Of a DNA stretch of 64,000 nt, positions 39,914-48,161 are shown piece after piece. Origin of the DNA: Methylococcaceae bacterium. GTDB taxonomy: Bacteria > Pseudomonadota > Gammaproteobacteria > Methylococcales > Methylomonadaceae. The translations under genes and the position numbers were made by a program. How positions within the stretch are numbered: the stretch's first letter is position 1; every line of letters begins with the position of its first letter. The notes under the pieces are model-generated. The model saw only the letters and a list, made by a program, of their open reading frames with translations, ran no database searches and was not told where the DNA came from. The DNA lies in contig JAUYBL010000007.1 of the NCBI GenBank assembly GCA_030693065.1, forward strand, positions 142,710 through 206,709, in the 5' to 3' direction.

Positions 39914-40819
39914 ATGAGTACACCCCAAGCCCTTTATCAATCATCTCTTAAGTCACTAAAACTACGTGCTCATGGCAAAGTGCGCGACATTTACGATATT
40001 GATGATCAGCACATGCTGATTGTGACAACTGACAGGCTCTCCGCATTCGATGTGATTTTGCCTGATCCCATTCCTGGTAAAGGCCGCGTGTTAACCAATG
40101 TGTCTAATTTTTGGTTTAACAAAATGAGCCATATCTTACCTAATCATTTGGCCAATATTCCTTTAGAGCAAGTGTTGCCTGATGCAGATGAACGCGCCCA
40201 GGTTGAAGGCCGCGCGATTGTCGTCAAATTGTTAAAACCGCTGCCGGTTGAAGCCATTGTGCGCGGCTATCTTATCGGCTCCGGTTGGAAAGATTATCAA
40301 AAGTCCGGCGCTATTTGCGGCATTGAACTTCCGCAAGGTTTACAGCAAGCCCAGCAATTACCCGAACCGATTTATACGCCGTCAACTAAAGCGGCGATGG
40401 ATCAACATGACGAAAATGTTACTTTCGCTAAAACGGTTGAGTTAATGGGGCAGTCGTTGGCGGAACAAGTGCGTGATGCCAGCTTGAAGCTCTACAAAGA
40501 AGCAGCTGCTTATGCTAAAGAGCGCGGCATTATTATCGCCGATACCAAATTTGAATTTGGCGTTGATGACAATGGCGTCCTGCATTTGATCGACGAAGCG
40601 CTTACCCCCGATTCCTCTCGCTTCTGGCCTGCTGATCAATATCAGGTTGGTATCAGTCCACCTAGTTTTGATAAACAGTATGTGCGTGATTACCTGGAAA
40701 CACTGGACTGGAATAAAACCGCTCCAGGCCCGCATTTACCCGTAGAAGTCGCTGAACATTGCGCGGCTAAATATAGGGAAGCGGAAATCAGATTGACTCA
40801 AGATAGAGCATTCAACTAA
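39914..40819 (+). CDS. purC: Phosphoribosylaminoimidazole-succinocarboxamide synthase
   Basis: This 301-residue purine-pathway enzyme joins CAIR and aspartate to give SAICAR. It is the longer, yeast Ade1-like version, seen in [70 protein letters not shown] and [28 protein letters not shown] precedes the ATG. Gene stands alone between the SUMF1 gene (divergent) and the lectin-pga region. Confidence 0.96.
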
Positions 40820-40834
40820 TTTTGCTCATGTAGG

Positions 40835-40909
40835 TGACATAATCCTGACATATTTGAGCGTTAGGCTAGTTTTACTGACACAAGTGACAGGTTTGTGACA
40901 TTTGCGTCA
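40835..40909 (+). promoter_or_regulatory. Phased TGACA repeats upstream of the lectin sigma-54 promoter
   Basis: TGACA occurs at 40835, 40846, 40876, 40885 and 40896, with start spacings of 11, 30, 9 and 11 bp, close to multiples of a helical turn. A GTCAG at 40905 gives an inverted half. This is the layout expected for an activator (enhancer-binding protein) 65 to 130 bp before a sigma-54 promoter. The protein that binds is not in this window. Confidence 0.5.
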
Positions 40910-40964
40910 GCTTTATGGCGCCACGATAGTTCTAATAAGTCTATATTTAATGGACTTGTTTAGT

Positions 40965-40980
40965 TGGCATTCAGATTGCT
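40965..40980 (+). promoter_or_regulatory. Sigma-54 promoter of the CTERM lectin gene
   Basis: TGGCATTCAGATTGCT fits the sigma-54 pattern TGGCA-N6-TTGCW with exact spacing between GG and GC. It lies 49 bp before the ATG. In this protein-sorting system genes with PEP-CTERM tails are often under sigma-54 and the PrsK/PrsR regulators, which agrees with this call. Confidence 0.65.
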
Positions 40981-41028
40981 TATTTATAATGGTCAACTTT
41001 AATAACTCTAATTTTTAGGAATTCTTTT

Positions 41029-41700
41029 ATGCGTAAAATAAATCGCTTTTTAACGGTGCTGGCAGTGTCGGCCGCGTCTTTTTCAACCCAAGCCGCGATC
41101 TTAAATTCAGATAATGGTCATTATTATGACTTGGTTACATTTGCCGATATAGGCGAGAGACTGGATTGGTTCGGTGCTAAAGCGTTTGCTGAAAATTCAA
41201 GCTTCAACGGCAACGTTGGTCATTTAGCGACCTTAACTTCCGCTGCTGAAGATGATTTTGTTTGGAACAACTTGGGCGCGGAAGGTTATTTTTTAGGTGC
41301 CTTTGATACCAGTACTCTCGGTCAAAATGGCACTTGGAGCCATAACTCATGGCAATGGGTCACCGGAGAAACTTTTTCTTACAGCAATTGGCTTGCTGGT
41401 GAGCCTAACCATTGGCAAGATGGCTCAGATTTGACGCCTAATAATGAAGATTATCTAGTATATGGTTGGAAAGACCGCGGTGCAGGTGTGCTGCGTTGGA
41501 ACGATACCAACGAAGATTCTTCATACATAGATGGCGGCATTAAGAAATACACGGCTAAAGGATTTGTAATCGAGTATGAAGCAGCGACAGGCAATGTTCC
41601 GCCTAAAACTGTGCCGGTGCCAGGTGCTTTTTGGTTATTTAGTTCTGTTTTGGTTGGTTTTGGTTTGCATAAGAAAAAGGAATTATTCGCTAACTCTTGA
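41029..41700 (+). CDS. Secreted C-type-lectin-like protein with a VPxxP-CTERM sorting tail
   Basis: This 223-residue protein has a signal peptide (1-22, ending STQA), a C-type-lectin-like domain (about 25-185; YDLVTFADIGERLDWFGAKA, WSHNSWQWVTGETFSYSNWL, AGEPNHWQDG, KGFVIEYE) and a C-terminal sorting signal: VPVPGAFWLFSSVLVGFGL followed by a basic HKKK end. The VPxP form is the VPEID/VPLPA-type exosortase or archaeosortase-like tail. It should be cut and anchored or released at the cell surface. A sigma-54 promoter precedes it and the pga operon follows 230 bp later. Confidence 0.85.
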   Translation: MRKINRFLTVLAVSAASFSTQAAILNSDNGHYYDLVTFADIGERLDWFGAKAFAENSSFNGNVGHLATLTSAAEDDFVWNNLGAEGYFLGAFDTSTLGQNGTWSHNSWQWVTGETFSYSNWLAGEPNHWQDGSDLTPNNEDYLVYGWKDRGAGVLRWNDTNEDSSYIDGGIKKYTAKGFVIEYEAATGNVPPKTVPVPGAFWLFSSVLVGFGLHKKKELFANS

Positions 41701-41709
41701 TAGCGTTAT

Positions 41710-41742
41710 TGCCCAAACCCATTAGGGCTTGGGCAGTTTTTT
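41710..41742 (+). terminator. Terminator after the lectin gene
   Basis: TGCCCAAACCC pairs with GGGCTTGGGCA (one mismatch) around ATTA, then a T6 tract at 41737-41742. It separates lectin and pga transcripts, so pgaA has its own promoter. Confidence 0.85.
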
Positions 41743-41930: not shown

Positions 41931-44459
41931 ATGAAAAATAAATCCATTCTTGCAGCCCTGTGTCTGCAAACCTCGCTTGCGCTTGGGCAAACTAGCGATG
42001 ATCAGAACTATAACGCTGCATTGGCATCTGCTCATGCAGGGAACACAGATCAAGCCATTCAGCAACTACAGCAATTGGTACAAAGTCACCCTGAGGTGCA
42101 ACGCTATTTATTTGATTACCTACAAATATTGTCTTGGGCAGATAGGGACGAAGAGGTCATTCAACAGGGTGCCAAAATTGATGTGCAACATGCACCTGTT
42201 TATGTGCTTGAGGCAATAGCAAAAGCAGCTAGACACTTAGGCGACTTTAAAAAATCCGAAATACTGTATCGCAAAGCGATAGAAAAAGAGCCTAAACGCT
42301 TGGCTCCCAGGCTTGGCTTAGGGTTGTTATTGATTGATCAAGGCCAAGCGGATTCTGCTATTACTTATTTGCAAACGTTAGCCGGCACTTATCCAAATGA
42401 AGTCGAAATTGTCATGGCGCAAGCTTATGCCCATGAGCTTGCAGGCCAGTACCCAATAGCCATTCAGTATTACCAGAAAGCCTTAAGCTTACAACCTGAC
42501 CGGCAAGATGCTCTGCGCGGATTGATACTTGCCTTTGCGAGATCAGGCGAAGTGCAAAAAGCGTTAGATTTGGCAACAGCCAACAGAGCGCTATTTTCAG
42601 ATGACCAATGGGCAAGTCTACAGTGGGATTATGCGGCCTGGTTGATCAGGCAAGGCGAACAGGCATTGCAAACCAATCCACGCGATTATCGGGGCATTGA
42701 TAAGGCTATTACCGCATTAAATAGCAATATCAGCGCAGTCGAAAAACTGAAACTTAAAGATCCTCAAGCCCTGTTGGCGCGGGCCAAGTTCGATTTGCTG
42801 GTCGCGTTACGCGATCGTAAACGCATGACTGATGTAGTCGAGCTGTACCAACAGCTGCAACAACAAGGACTAGCCATACCGGTTTATGCCCGCATGGCGG
42901 CGGCCGATGCTTATTTGAATAACCGGGAACCTGAAACTGCCCGCGATCTTTATCTTTCGGTCATCGCCGAACAACCCGATTACTTTAATGCTCGCGCATC
43001 GTTGGTATATGCCTACCTGGAAGCTGAGCAGATTGATAAGGCGCTAGCCTTGGCTGAACAACTGGCTCAAGAACAACCGGCAAAACTTGAATTCAAACAG
43101 CCCAACGGTTCGGTAATCACTCGCGACAATCCTAAAAAAATATCTGCCGACCTGACTGCCGCCATTTTGCGCGCCTATGCTGACGATTTGGATGGGGCTC
43201 AGCAAAAGTTGGAGCAATTACACAGTCAATATCCAGATAACACCGATATTCATAGCAAATTGGCCGAGGTTTACTATTTTCGCGGCTGGCCACGAAAAGC
43301 GCGGCAGCAGATAAATTCAGCGCAGATTAAAGCGCCGGAGCATCTGGGCTTAAAACTGAGCCAAGCCAAAGTGCAGCGTGAATTAAAAGACTATCGCGCG
43401 GAGGAGCGAACTACCTATGCGCTCAACGAAAACAGTCCTGAGGACAGCGGCGTACAAAAACAAATGCGCGCCTGGCAAATTCATAACGACCGCGAGTTAA
43501 AGGTGTTGGCGAATGGTAGCTTGAGCGACAACGCCAAGAACGGTGCGAGTCCTGTGCTAGGAACTGACGAAATCACTGTGGATGGCTTTCTTTATTCAAG
43601 TCCAATAGCGGAAAACTACCGCGTATTTACGCATGATGGTTGGAAAACTGGGTCGTTTAAAGAGGGGCGTCGCTACTTGAGGCATTATGGCGCAGGTCTT
43701 GAGTATTCCGGGCACAGTACGACAGCCACTGCGGAAGTACATTATGATAATTTCAGCGATGAAGCTGTTGGTTTGGACTTAGGTCTTGAATATCAATTAA
43801 ATGATAACTGGCAGGTGTTCTCGCGTTTGAGCAGCCGTGATAATGAGATTTCCTTGCGGGCTTTAAATGGCGTAGTCGATAAAAGAGACAAAAACGACAA
43901 TGCGAAAATTTACGAAAGATATAACGCCATTACTGCAAAATCGGCAATGCTGGGTACAACTTATAAGGTCAACGAATCGCGTTTTTTTACTGTAGCCAGC
44001 AGATATTACAACTTCAGTGACGGCAATAACCGTTACGGCATTGATGGAACGTATTTTGAACGCTGGATCAGTGGGCCGGTCTATAAAATGGCGACTTATG
44101 TTAATACCGGATTTTCCGCGAATACTCGCAATAAGTTTTTATTTCCTGATGGTGAGTATGGCTCTAGCGCTTACTACAGCCCTGACAAAGATGCTTCCGT
44201 ATCACTTACTCTCGACAATGACTTTCTCACCTATCGCCATTACGAAACCGCATTTCACCAAAAACTGGCGCTATCGGTTGGGAATTATTGGCAGCAAAAC
44301 TATGGATCCAACATCGTCGGCAATGTTCAATACGAACATCGCTGGCAAGTAGCCAATCGCTTTGAACTGTCCTACGGCGGCGTCAGGGGCTATCACTATT
44401 ATGATGATGGCCTGACCAAAAACTGGTTCATGTATCTGACGGCTGATTTACGCTTTTGA
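41931..44459 (+). CDS. pgaA: PgaA, outer-membrane exporter of poly-beta-1,6-N-acetylglucosamine
   Basis: This 842-residue protein has a signal peptide (1-19, ending ALG), a TPR-rich helical domain (about 25-500; repeated A-L-x-x-A patterns such as AYAHELAGQYPIAIQYYQKA and KLAEVYYFRGWPRKA) that binds the polymer, and a C-terminal beta-barrel ending YLTADLRF. It exports deacetylated PGA. The gene starts the pgaABCD set and overlaps pgaB by 4 bp. Confidence 0.93.
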   Translation: MKNKSILAALCLQTSLALGQTSDDQNYNAALASAHAGNTDQAIQQLQQLVQSHPEVQRYLFDYLQILSWADRDEEVIQQGAKIDVQHAPVYVLEAIAKAARHLGDFKKSEILYRKAIEKEPKRLAPRLGLGLLLIDQGQADSAITYLQTLAGTYPNEVEIVMAQAYAHELAGQYPIAIQYYQKALSLQPDRQDALRGLILAFARSGEVQKALDLATANRALFSDDQWASLQWDYAAWLIRQGEQALQTNPRDYRGIDKAITALNSNISAVEKLKLKDPQALLARAKFDLLVALRDRKRMTDVVELYQQLQQQGLAIPVYARMAAADAYLNNREPETARDLYLSVIAEQPDYFNARASLVYAYLEAEQIDKALALAEQLAQEQPAKLEFKQPNGSVITRDNPKKISADLTAAILRAYADDLDGAQQKLEQLHSQYPDNTDIHSKLAEVYYFRGWPRKARQQINSAQIKAPEHLGLKLSQAKVQRELKDYRAEERTTYALNENSPEDSGVQKQMRAWQIHNDRELKVLANGSLSDNAKNGASPVLGTDEITVDGFLYSSPIAENYRVFTHDGWKTGSFKEGRRYLRHYGAGLEYSGHSTTATAEVHYDNFSDEAVGLDLGLEYQLNDNWQVFSRLSSRDNEISLRALNGVVDKRDKNDNAKIYERYNAITAKSAMLGTTYKVNESRFFTVASRYYNFSDGNNRYGIDGTYFERWISGPVYKMATYVNTGFSANTRNKFLFPDGEYGSSAYYSPDKDASVSLTLDNDFLTYRHYETAFHQKLALSVGNYWQQNYGSNIVGNVQYEHRWQVANRFELSYGGVRGYHYYDDGLTKNWFMYLTADLRF

Positions 44460-46351
44460 TCATGCGCAATTTGTTTTTTATCTTGGTGCTTGCGTTGTTA
44501 CCAGGTGGAGTGAGTGCGCAGAGCCAAGGCTTGATTGCATTGTGTTATCACAACATCGCCGCCGAGTGGGATGGCGATCCGATGACCACGACCCGCGATC
44601 AATTTCAGGCGCAAATGGCGTGGCTGAAAGCGCAGGGCTATCAGCCAATTAGCGTGCAACAGCTCATCAGCGCCCGTAAGCAACATCAATCCTTGCCTGA
44701 AAAGCCGGTGTTGCTGACCTTTGATGACGGTCATGCCGGGTTTTACGAACATGCCTTTCCGCTGCTTAAACAATTCAATTTTCCGGCAGTATTAGCGCTT
44801 GTTACCGATTGGCTGGAAACGCCGACGAATCAACAAGTGCATTACGATACCGGCTTAAAACCACGCAGTGATTTTTTAACCTGGTCGCAGGTTGATCAGA
44901 TGAGCGCGTCTGGTTTGTTAGAAGTCGCTTCGCATAGCCATGATCTTCATCACGGTATTAGCGGCAATCCTTTTGGTGATCTACAGCCTGCCGCAACTAC
45001 CAGGCGTTACGATACTATCGAGCAAAGTTATGAATCCGACGAACAGTTCCACCAGCGCATAAAATCCGATTTGCAACAAAGCTCGGATATTGTCTTCAAA
45101 CATCTGAAACTTAGGCCTAGAGTCATGGTCTGGCCATTTGGAGAATTTAATCGTGAAACGCTGGACATAGCGCAGAGCCTTGGCTTTAGCTTGTCGATGA
45201 GCTTGCAGGAAGGCAGTAATAACCAGATTGATTCCCCGGTTATCAAACGTTACCTGGTTAGAAATAATCCCAACTTGGCTGAATTTATCCGCGACATACG
45301 CAATATCGATGTTGTGCCGCCTATTCGTGTGGTCCAGGTTGATATGGATTACATTTATGACGCAGACCCTGAGCAAACCCGTCGAAATCTTGGGGAACTG
45401 TTGGATAGAATCAAAGCGATGCATATTAATACGGTGTATTTGCAGGCTTTTTCTGACCAAAATGGCGACGGCAATGCCGATGCGATGTACTTCGCCAATC
45501 GACATTTACCGATGCGGGCGGACTTGTTTAGTCATGTGGCCTGGCAATTGATTACCCGTGCGCGGGTCAAGGTCTATGCTTGGATGCCGGTGTTATCGTT
45601 TCCGCTTGATACGCCTGATGATTGGTGGGTGCATGAGTTTGACCACGACCACAATGCCCAGCCAATATTAAGCAAGCATAACTATCGACGTTTATCGCCG
45701 TTTCACCATGGAGCGCGCAAGATTGTTAGCGAGATTTACCAGGATTTGGCTAAAACCAGTCACTTTGCCGGTTTGCTGTTTCATGATGATGCTTTGCTGA
45801 CCGATTTTGAGGATGCCAATCCAGCGGCGTTACTGCATCTCAAGGGCTTAACGCCAGAACAGCAAAGCGGACTCAAAATAGCCGCATTAGCCGGGTGGAC
45901 TAAAACGATGGCGGATCAGGTTCGCTATTATCGACCTGATATTAAAACCGCCAGAAATCTGTACGCTAATGTGGTGATGAATCCAAATAGCAGCACATGG
46001 TTTGCGCAATCGTTGCCCAGTTTTTTACAAAATTACGATTACACCGCTGTGATGGCGATGCCTTTTTTAGAAAATGCCTCAGAACCTATGTCTTGGCTGG
46101 AAACGTTGGTTAAGAAAATAACGGCTTATCCGCAAGGCTTGCAAAAGACCGTCTTCGAGCTGCAAGCTGTTGATTGGCGGAGTAAACAAAAAGTCCCCGA
46201 CGCCACACTGGCTGAGCAAATGTCCTTATTGCGGCGGCTTGATGCTTTTAATTACGGCTATTACCCGGATGATTTTCATCTCGATAAGCCTTCGCTAGAT
46301 ATGCTCAAAATCCAGCTATCTCTTCCTCAAAACGTAACTGACCACCCATGA
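44456..46351 (+). CDS. pgaB: PgaB, poly-beta-1,6-N-acetylglucosamine N-deacetylase
   Basis: This 631-residue periplasmic protein has a signal peptide (1-20), a NodB-type deacetylase domain (about 25-290; LIALCYHNI, VLLTFDDGHAGFYEH with the metal Asp pair, EVASHSHDLHHG with the metal His pair, WPFGEFN) and a C-terminal GHL13 hydrolase-like domain (VVQVDMDYIYDADPEQT, NTVYLQAFSDQNGDG). Partial deacetylation is needed for export. Overlaps pgaC by 4 bp. Confidence 0.95.
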   Translation: MIMRNLFFILVLALLPGGVSAQSQGLIALCYHNIAAEWDGDPMTTTRDQFQAQMAWLKAQGYQPISVQQLISARKQHQSLPEKPVLLTFDDGHAGFYEHAFPLLKQFNFPAVLALVTDWLETPTNQQVHYDTGLKPRSDFLTWSQVDQMSASGLLEVASHSHDLHHGISGNPFGDLQPAATTRRYDTIEQSYESDEQFHQRIKSDLQQSSDIVFKHLKLRPRVMVWPFGEFNRETLDIAQSLGFSLSMSLQEGSNNQIDSPVIKRYLVRNNPNLAEFIRDIRNIDVVPPIRVVQVDMDYIYDADPEQTRRNLGELLDRIKAMHINTVYLQAFSDQNGDGNADAMYFANRHLPMRADLFSHVAWQLITRARVKVYAWMPVLSFPLDTPDDWWVHEFDHDHNAQPILSKHNYRRLSPFHHGARKIVSEIYQDLAKTSHFAGLLFHDDALLTDFEDANPAALLHLKGLTPEQQSGLKIAALAGWTKTMADQVRYYRPDIKTARNLYANVVMNPNSSTWFAQSLPSFLQNYDYTAVMAMPFLENASEPMSWLETLVKKITAYPQGLQKTVFELQAVDWRSKQKVPDATLAEQMSLLRRLDAFNYGYYPDDFHLDKPSLDMLKIQLSLPQNVTDHP

Positions 46352-47709
46352 ATTCGCTTAACGCATTTTTTGACGGCGCAATCTTGCCGAGTATTAATCA
46401 AGTCATCATTTTTCTTGGTGGTGTATGGCACTCTTTTATTGCCAATGGCAGCTTTATCCTGAAAGCATGGATCGATGCTCTGCTTGATTTTGCATTTTAT
46501 TACCCGCTATTCATGGCCTATCTGTGGATGATTGGTGCTTTGATTTATTACTTTCATTGGGAAAAAAACGCCGCTTACGATCCCGAGCAAGTACCTGAAT
46601 TATCTGCCTACCCAGGGGTATCGATTATCGTGCCCTGTCATAACGAAGGTCGCGATTTACACGACACCATCGAATACTTACTGCTGCAAAAATATCCAAA
46701 TTTCGAAATTATTGCCGTAAACGATGGCAGTACTGACGACACCCTGGAAATTTTGCTAACGCTTGCCGAACAACATAAACAAGTCCGTGTTATCAACCTG
46801 GAACTTAATCAAGGCAAAGCTATTGCGATGAAGACCGGCGCCTTGTTTTCTAAAAACGAATATCTGGTGTGTATTGATGGAGATGCATTGCTGGCGCCGG
46901 AAGCAACGCATTGGATAATGCAGCACTTTTTGTCCGGTCATCGAGTGGCCGCTGTGACTGGCAATCCACGTATTCGCACGCGTTCGACGCTATTGGGTAA
47001 AATTCAGGTCGGTGAATTTTCGGCCATCATCGGTTTAATCAAGAGGGCGCAACGGGTTTATGGACGTATTTTTACTGTCTCAGGCGTTGTTACTGGCTTT
47101 AGAAAATCGGCGCTGCATCGGGTTGGCTATTGGAGTAACGACATGGTTACCGACGATATTGACATCAGTTGGAAGCTACAGTTGGATCATTGGGATATTC
47201 GTTTCGAACCGAATGCTTTGTGTTGGATACTCATGCCGGAAACATTGGGCGGCTTATGGCGGCAAAGATTGCGCTGGGCGCAGGGTGGTGCAGAGGCACT
47301 CATTCGTTATTACAAAAAACTGGGATTATGGAAGTCGAGACGAATGTGGGGTGTTTATTTAGAGTATCTCACCAGCGTTTTTTGGTCTTACACCATGATG
47401 GCGGTGTTTATCTTGTGGTCGTTAGATTGGTTTATCGATTTGCCTGAAGCGTTGGTCATTCCCACACTAATTCCTAGTTGGGGCGGTGTGCTTCTGGGTA
47501 TTACTTGTTTAGTGCAATTTGCGGTCAGTTTGATTATCGATTCACGCTATGAAAAGAACTTAGGCAAAACTTACTACTGGATGATTTGGTACCCGTTGGT
47601 CTATTGGATAATCAATGTCTTAACTGCTGTGTTTGGTTTAATTAAAGCAATTATCAAAAAACGTAACACCCGTGCTGTTTGGGTCAGCCCTGATCGAGGT
47701 ATCCGATGA
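46348..47709 (+). CDS. pgaC: PgaC, poly-beta-1,6-N-acetylglucosamine synthase
   Basis: This 453-residue GT2 glycosyltransferase sits in the inner membrane with spans at about residues 13-30, 41-70 and three to four near the C-terminus. The catalytic series is NDGSTDD, DGDALLAPEA, TDDIDISWKLQ and QRLRWAQGG. It polymerises UDP-GlcNAc and translocates the chain. Overlaps pgaD by 4 bp. Confidence 0.96.
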   Translation: MNSLNAFFDGAILPSINQVIIFLGGVWHSFIANGSFILKAWIDALLDFAFYYPLFMAYLWMIGALIYYFHWEKNAAYDPEQVPELSAYPGVSIIVPCHNEGRDLHDTIEYLLLQKYPNFEIIAVNDGSTDDTLEILLTLAEQHKQVRVINLELNQGKAIAMKTGALFSKNEYLVCIDGDALLAPEATHWIMQHFLSGHRVAAVTGNPRIRTRSTLLGKIQVGEFSAIIGLIKRAQRVYGRIFTVSGVVTGFRKSALHRVGYWSNDMVTDDIDISWKLQLDHWDIRFEPNALCWILMPETLGGLWRQRLRWAQGGAEALIRYYKKLGLWKSRRMWGVYLEYLTSVFWSYTMMAVFILWSLDWFIDLPEALVIPTLIPSWGGVLLGITCLVQFAVSLIIDSRYEKNLGKTYYWMIWYPLVYWIINVLTAVFGLIKAIIKKRNTRAVWVSPDRGIR

Positions 47710-48161
47710 AAGACCTCATCATAAATACGCCTTCGCTACAAAGCATCAAGCAAAAATACGTATCAGCGTTGCTTACCTTCGTTTTTTGGGTGGTGTGGAT
47801 ATTTTTATGGACGCCGCTGGTGACCTTGATCGGGTGGATATTAGGGGTTGATTTGGTAATTTTCCAAATGATCGAATTAGGCGGCTATCAAGGCGTTGTC
47901 GCAGACTTTATAGTATTTTTACTGTGTGTAGCGTTGATGGGCGGGGCTTTGGCAATATGGGCAGGGTACAATTTTGTTCGCTTCAGAAATGTTGATCGCA
48001 GAACGCCGTTGCCACCTGTAACTAACAGCCAATTGGCTGAATTTTTTAAGGTTAACGAAGTACTTTTATCTACACAGCAACAGACCCAGTGCCTGTCAGT
48101 CAGCTTTGATGATGAGGGCAATATTATTTCCAGTACAAAAATAGTGGGTAAAACCTCGTAG
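47706..48161 (+). CDS. pgaD: PgaD, small subunit of the PGA synthase
   Basis: This 151-residue protein has two membrane spans (about 20-45, FVFWVVWIFLWTPLVTLIGW, and 65-90) and a soluble tail. Sequence conservation of PgaD is low, so the call rests on size, topology and position after pgaC. In E. coli it binds c-di-GMP jointly with PgaC. An imperfect TAGGTC/GACCTA inverted repeat straddles its stop. Confidence 0.85.
   Translation: MKDLIINTPSLQSIKQKYVSALLTFVFWVVWIFLWTPLVTLIGWILGVDLVIFQMIELGGYQGVVADFIVFLLCVALMGGALAIWAGYNFVRFRNVDRRTPLPPVTNSQLAEFFKVNEVLLSTQQQTQCLSVSFDDEGNIISSTKIVGKTS

Follow-up and report, generated by a model that had tools for sequence, protein, structure and literature searches.

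In a methane-eating bacterium, the gene for a surface lectin that lies beside the genes for a biofilm sugar appears, from its DNA sequence, to be driven by a promoter that needs an activator. We consider it likely that positions 40845-40980 of the window (the whole 64-kb stretch analysed here, G000:C25:142710-206709 of a 3.96-Mb draft genome) form an enhancer-dependent sigma-54 promoter, the upstream boxes of which are predicted to bind a receiver-less PAS-AAA+-Fis activator (EBP). We regard the operator and the regulator as new, and the kind of control to which they belong as known.

The original prediction had placed a correctly spaced sigma-54 promoter, TGGCA-N6-TTGCT, ahead of a CTERM lectin gene, and it was borne out on both counts. 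On the + strand, TTGGCATTCAGATTGCT (40964-40980) contains, at 40965-40980, an exact TGGCA-N6-TTGCT, with the GG of the -24 and the GC of the -12 element 10 bp apart (GG-N10-GC), and transcription would be expected to start near 40990. This is the single exact match to TGGCA-N6-TTGCW in the 64-kb window. The site is unchanged in the same-genus genome G003, where the lectin is 90% identical and the whole segment aligns, and seven lectin orthologs from two further genera have GG-N10-GC 59-91 bp ahead of their start codons. In the lectin lineages L074 and L075/L076 a clear box or sigma-54 site is absent at the expected place, and the EBP is encoded in their genomes. The sigma-54 motif alone proves little, because 27 of the 30 exact TGGCAN6TTGCW sites inspected genome-wide fall within open frames. 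The upstream neighbour, purC (39914-40819, + strand), is unrelated in function.

The gene downstream of the promoter (41029-41700, + strand) encodes a CTERM protein of 223 aa with a signal peptide, a C-type lectin-like domain carrying EPN and WND motifs, and a PVPGAFWLF...KKK tail. The parts of an exosortase substrate (signal peptide, PxP, hydrophobic stretch and basic tail) are visible and conserved; the PEP-CTERM model PF07589 scores 13.2 against a cut-off of 20.7, TIGR03370 gives no report, and two exosortase genes are present in the genome. With the single lectin sequence, Pfam Lectin_C remained below its cut-off (16.9 versus 22.6); a profile built from nine orthologs matched solved C-type lectins (E 6e-6), a GlcNAc-specific one among them at lower rank, and the sugar-site motifs EPN and WND are conserved in nearly all family members. 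The AlphaFold model of the lectin is poor (pLDDT 55).

An intrinsic terminator (41708-41742, + strand; a hairpin of -18.4 kcal/mol followed by a T run) separates the lectin gene from the pga operon (41931-48161, + strand), apparently transcribed from a promoter of its own. The operon comprises pgaA (41931-44459), pgaB (44456-46351), pgaC (46348-47709) and pgaD (47706-48161) for PNAG synthesis and export, and, as expected of a pgaABCD locus, PgaA, PgaB, PgaC and PgaD each exceed their NCBIfam cut-off. What distinguishes it from such loci is the linked CTERM lectin with a sigma-54 promoter of its own, an arrangement found in several methanotroph genera. Lectin orthologs (about 50-58% identity) occur in Methylomonas, in Methylomicrobium wino1 and in other Methylococcaceae, and where the flanks can be checked nearly all of them sit at pga. 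Because their position there varies (ahead of pgaA, between pgaB and pgaA, or after pgaD), the promoter follows the lectin rather than any single gene order. The pga linkage and the EPN motif suggest that the lectin may bind PNAG. Separately, PgaA in two Methylomonas genomes (L106 and L108) is enlarged by repeated TPR regions, the frames being 1196 and 1634 residues long versus about 840 elsewhere.

Upstream of the promoter, TGACA starts at 40835, 40846, 40876, 40885 and 40896 (spacings of 11, 30, 9 and 11 bp). Five same-strand copies within 66 bp were reached in none of 300 dinucleotide shuffles of the window, the maxima of which were 1-3 copies, and in the real window AAAAA, TTTTT and TGACA are the only 5-mers to reach five copies per 66 bp. 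As a word TGACA is not enriched (110 in the window versus 116 expected), so that the clustering is the unusual feature. Gibbs sampling of the regions upstream of ten lectin orthologs yielded a 16-bp inverted repeat, CTGNCA-N4-TGNCAG, with a log-likelihood of 182 versus 145-155 in 20 shuffled sets; the box was thus recovered de novo before the lectin gene in several methanotroph genera. TGACA was therefore rejected as the unit, since the word alone is not enriched and the 16-bp box alone is common to the orthologs. The proposed activator array of five TGACA repeats near helical turns accordingly stands as regards its presence, number and clustering, with conserved box copies upstream of the sigma-54 site, whereas its spacing is better described in terms of 16-bp boxes.

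Box A (40875-40890, CTGACA-CAAG-TGACAG), the predicted activator site, is the sole exact box of the array. The two other boxes are degenerate: box B (40895-40910, GTGACA-TTTG-CGTCAG), with two mismatches, starts 20 bp from box A, and the weak box C (40845-40860, CTGACA-TATT-TGAGCG) has two mismatches here and one in G003. Start-to-start distances are thus 20 and 30 bp, or roughly two and three turns of the helix, and the boxes lie 54-119 bp upstream of the -24 element. In the same-genus genome four of the five TGACA copies are unchanged, the outermost half-site (40835-40839) included, the third has become TGTCA, and box A differs by four substitutions, every one of them at a degenerate position. 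The distance between half-sites is 9 bp in eight lectin lineages and in the EBP promoters. These repeats are very probably the docking sites of a dedicated activator, as predicted. Between array and promoter, the palindrome TGGCGCCA (40916-40923) reads TGACGTCA in G003, and because both sides changed together in the sister genome it suggests a further putative protein-binding site.

Scans of the own genome rested on pattern searches, and the strict single-box search was weak: box A is one of 7 exact sites in the 3.96-Mb draft, against 3 for the reversed control, and several of the 7 lie inside genes. A two-box search across the family succeeded where this one did not, with matches in 69 of 237 genomes, far above the reversed control, the few matches of which were concentrated in a handful of genomes. 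The 53 stretches that were fetched contained 56 two-box sites, all but one (55/56) intergenic, and 38 of the 56 were intergenic and had a sigma-54 site (score 20 or more) no further than 300 bp away, in repeated cases 51-55 bp downstream of the paired boxes. Across the family the distance between box starts peaks at 20-22 bp, and lesser peaks lie near 31 and 42; the search pattern itself confined the first spacing to the range 18-32, not to the peak inside it. The same array was indeed found before other CTERM genes, as the original prediction had proposed to check: a loose regular expression classed 13 of the 31 complete downstream genes as CTERM, and about four more were recognized by eye. 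In the background of the script, 27/182, the targets are counted too; it is no clean control.

A second target in the own genome is an array near C37:18346-18372 (L069/L190), which stands with a sigma-54 site before a PAS-GGDEF gene; response-regulator, TolC-like and periplasmic-binding-like genes (named from reading their sequences) follow. This array is conserved in G003, where the -12 element is GT. A dense array of about three boxes at G000:C17:9993-10026 (L152/L155) lies between convergent genes near the end of a CTERM gene, and a sigma-54 site and an obvious target are absent there; it possibly marks a small RNA or a remnant.

The best candidate for the activator of the lectin promoter, judging from gene neighbourhood and co-occurrence, is a receiver-less PAS-AAA+-Fis protein, the gene of which adjoins several of the arrays in several genera. 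The own-genome copy (G000:C20, 435 aa, about G000:C20:71542-72849) lies divergent from two CTERM genes, the similar secreted products of which end in VPVP and VPAP tails, and boxes lie between; at the CTERM gene divergent from it the -12 element reads GA instead of GC. This EBP is present in 58 of the 237 family genomes, in 11 genera. Paired palindromic boxes occur in 22 of the 58 genomes that encode it versus 2 of the 179 that do not (p 2e-13), the reversed control being unassociated, and the EBP is encoded in all 12 genomes with a pga-linked lectin (p 2e-8); both p-values treat genomes as independent and ignore kinship. With at most one mismatch, the box stands upstream of the EBP gene itself in 20 of 30 genomes versus 0.35 expected. 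At the lectin promoter, boxes upstream of the sigma-54 site and an EBP encoded in the same genome are found together. With PrsR as the probe, no EBP gene was seen beside pga in Methylomonas and its relatives, over loci of up to 16.6 kb each.

Across 25 EBPs the recognition helix (GNRKLIAAEMNISERTLYRKLNRL) is near-invariant, and the PAS domain carries an almost invariant CC-x5-CRH motif. In having an N-terminal sensory domain, an AAA+ domain with a GAFTGA loop and a Fis-type HTH, the protein resembles one-component EBPs of the NifA/NorR/PrdR type, which likewise are often divergent from their target with inverted-repeat sites. It lacks a receiver domain and exceeds the cut-off of no NCBIfam equivalog; because even its highest NCBIfam scores fall well short of all curated cut-offs (NifA, for example, 324 versus 529), it falls, unlike NifA, NorR and PrdR, in no named family, and its PAS domain has the invariant CC-x5-CRH.

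The box upstream of the EBP gene could mark that gene as a target rather than as the regulator, and with about sixteen EBP-type genes in the own genome a different EBP might bind the boxes and count the PAS-EBP merely among its targets. We consider this improbable, as the occurrence of box pairs goes with that of the EBP gene across 11 genera, and it is usual for an autoregulated EBP gene to lie divergent from its target.

Activation of the lectin by PilR, reading TGTC-type half-sites here too, is likewise unlikely. PilS/PilR-like genes are present in the own genome, and the Pseudomonas PilR consensus, repeated (C/G)TGTC, resembles the half-sites; PilS/PilR control of pilA shares with the lectin promoter TGTC/GACA half-sites upstream of a sigma-54 promoter. 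The spacers differ, however: the CTGACA-N5-TGTCAC of family pilA promoters places half-sites 10 bp apart (19 pairs in 23 pilA promoters), whereas the N4 of the lectin box places them 9 bp apart in lectin and PAS-EBP promoters alike, and on this difference PilR was rejected. The arrays, moreover, follow the PAS-EBP across genomes. As an observation in its own right, CTGACA-N5-TGTCAC upstream of sigma-54 sites in most family pilA promoters (L189, L192-L220) would represent the PilR box of this family.

The original prediction had named PrsR, with its partner PrsK, as the protein that might read the array. PrsR has been proposed to regulate many PEP-CTERM genes (PMC1569441), and pepA of Aquincola is RpoN-dependent (PMC9850573). 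The own genome encodes both partners, PrsR at 702 bits against a cut-off of 503 and a PrsK-like histidine kinase directly upstream; a sigma-54 promoter in a long upstream region, a CTERM unit of a single gene and an activator site tens of base pairs upstream are common to PrsK/PrsR systems and the lectin locus, and a TGTC element is common to the PrsR-type motif and the box. Against the view that PrsR-type sites have no described consensus, a 17-nt activator motif ending in TTTACA has been reported at a mean of about 63 bp (32-92) before the sigma-54 motif (Haft et al. 2006, PMC1569441). In the own genome, three other CTERM genes (L049, L060 and L064) are preceded by a TGTCRGNTTTYTTTACA-like 17-nt motif, respectively 62, 81 and 70 bp from a sigma-54-like site; the motif is absent at the lectin promoter, which places the lectin, by the defining site, outside the PrsR regulon. 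Its predicted operator is instead the phased CTGNCA-N4-TGNCAG, and the candidate activator, in contrast to PrsR, bears a PAS domain and has neither a receiver nor a partner kinase. Many PEP-CTERM genes lack a PrsR site, so that other regulators are needed (Haft et al. 2006, PMC1569441). With the box tracking a different EBP across genomes, activation of the lectin by PrsK/PrsR through the TGACA array is very unlikely; the original prediction was probably wrong in choosing PrsR as the array binder and right in its sigma-54/CTERM reading. Because the PrsR-type motif stands before three own-genome CTERM genes, this genome probably has two distinct sigma-54 systems that serve CTERM genes.

That the repeats are Pho boxes for PhoB, 11-bp direct TGTCA repeats, is highly improbable and was ruled against, since the two minus-strand TGTCA pairs spaced 11 bp that invite this reading point away from the lectin gene, the sister genome reads TGTCA at one of the half-sites, the motif common to ortholog promoters is an inverted repeat of 9-bp spacing and PhoB promoters use sigma-70; in favour of PhoB stand a like array before pstS in the own genome and phoB-phoR-like genes near some pga-lectin loci. 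The pstS array (G000:C5:135679-135714, L065), a Pho-box-like series of TGTCA with a sigma-70-like -10, explains one genomic TGACA cluster. The phoB-phoR-like genes lie close to the pga-lectin locus in L104 (9481-11484) and L103 (2590-4593).

If the PAS-EBP is the activator, its PAS domain would sense a signal, possibly through CC-x5-CRH, and the protein would assemble on the phased boxes and loop to the sigma-54 RNA polymerase, so that the promoter opens. The lectin would then be made, exported and anchored through its CTERM, and PNAG from the adjacent pga operon may be held by the C-type lectin domain with its EPN and WND motifs. In other bacteria c-di-GMP is an established activator of PNAG synthases, which makes joint control of polymer and lectin plausible, although unproven. 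We tentatively raise the possibility, which we hold to be somewhat less probable than its converse, of a methanotroph matrix switch separate from PrsK/PrsR, in which the PAS-EBP (with CC-x5-CRH as a possible redox or metal sensor) would read the boxes and jointly induce exosortase substrates, the PNAG-linked lectin and the C37 diguanylate cyclase operon; one signal would both raise c-di-GMP, activating PNAG synthesis, and supply the lectin that holds the polymer.

The literature we found describes no regulator of exosortase substrates other than PrsK/PrsR. The present finding offers a defined operator, a candidate activator whose sensor motif is conserved and a set of target genes in cultivable Methylomonas, and the same predicted sites recur in related species ahead of many other secreted CTERM-class proteins. 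With a CTERM protein linked to PNAG, a chemically known polymer, the surface role of exosortase substrates would become directly testable.
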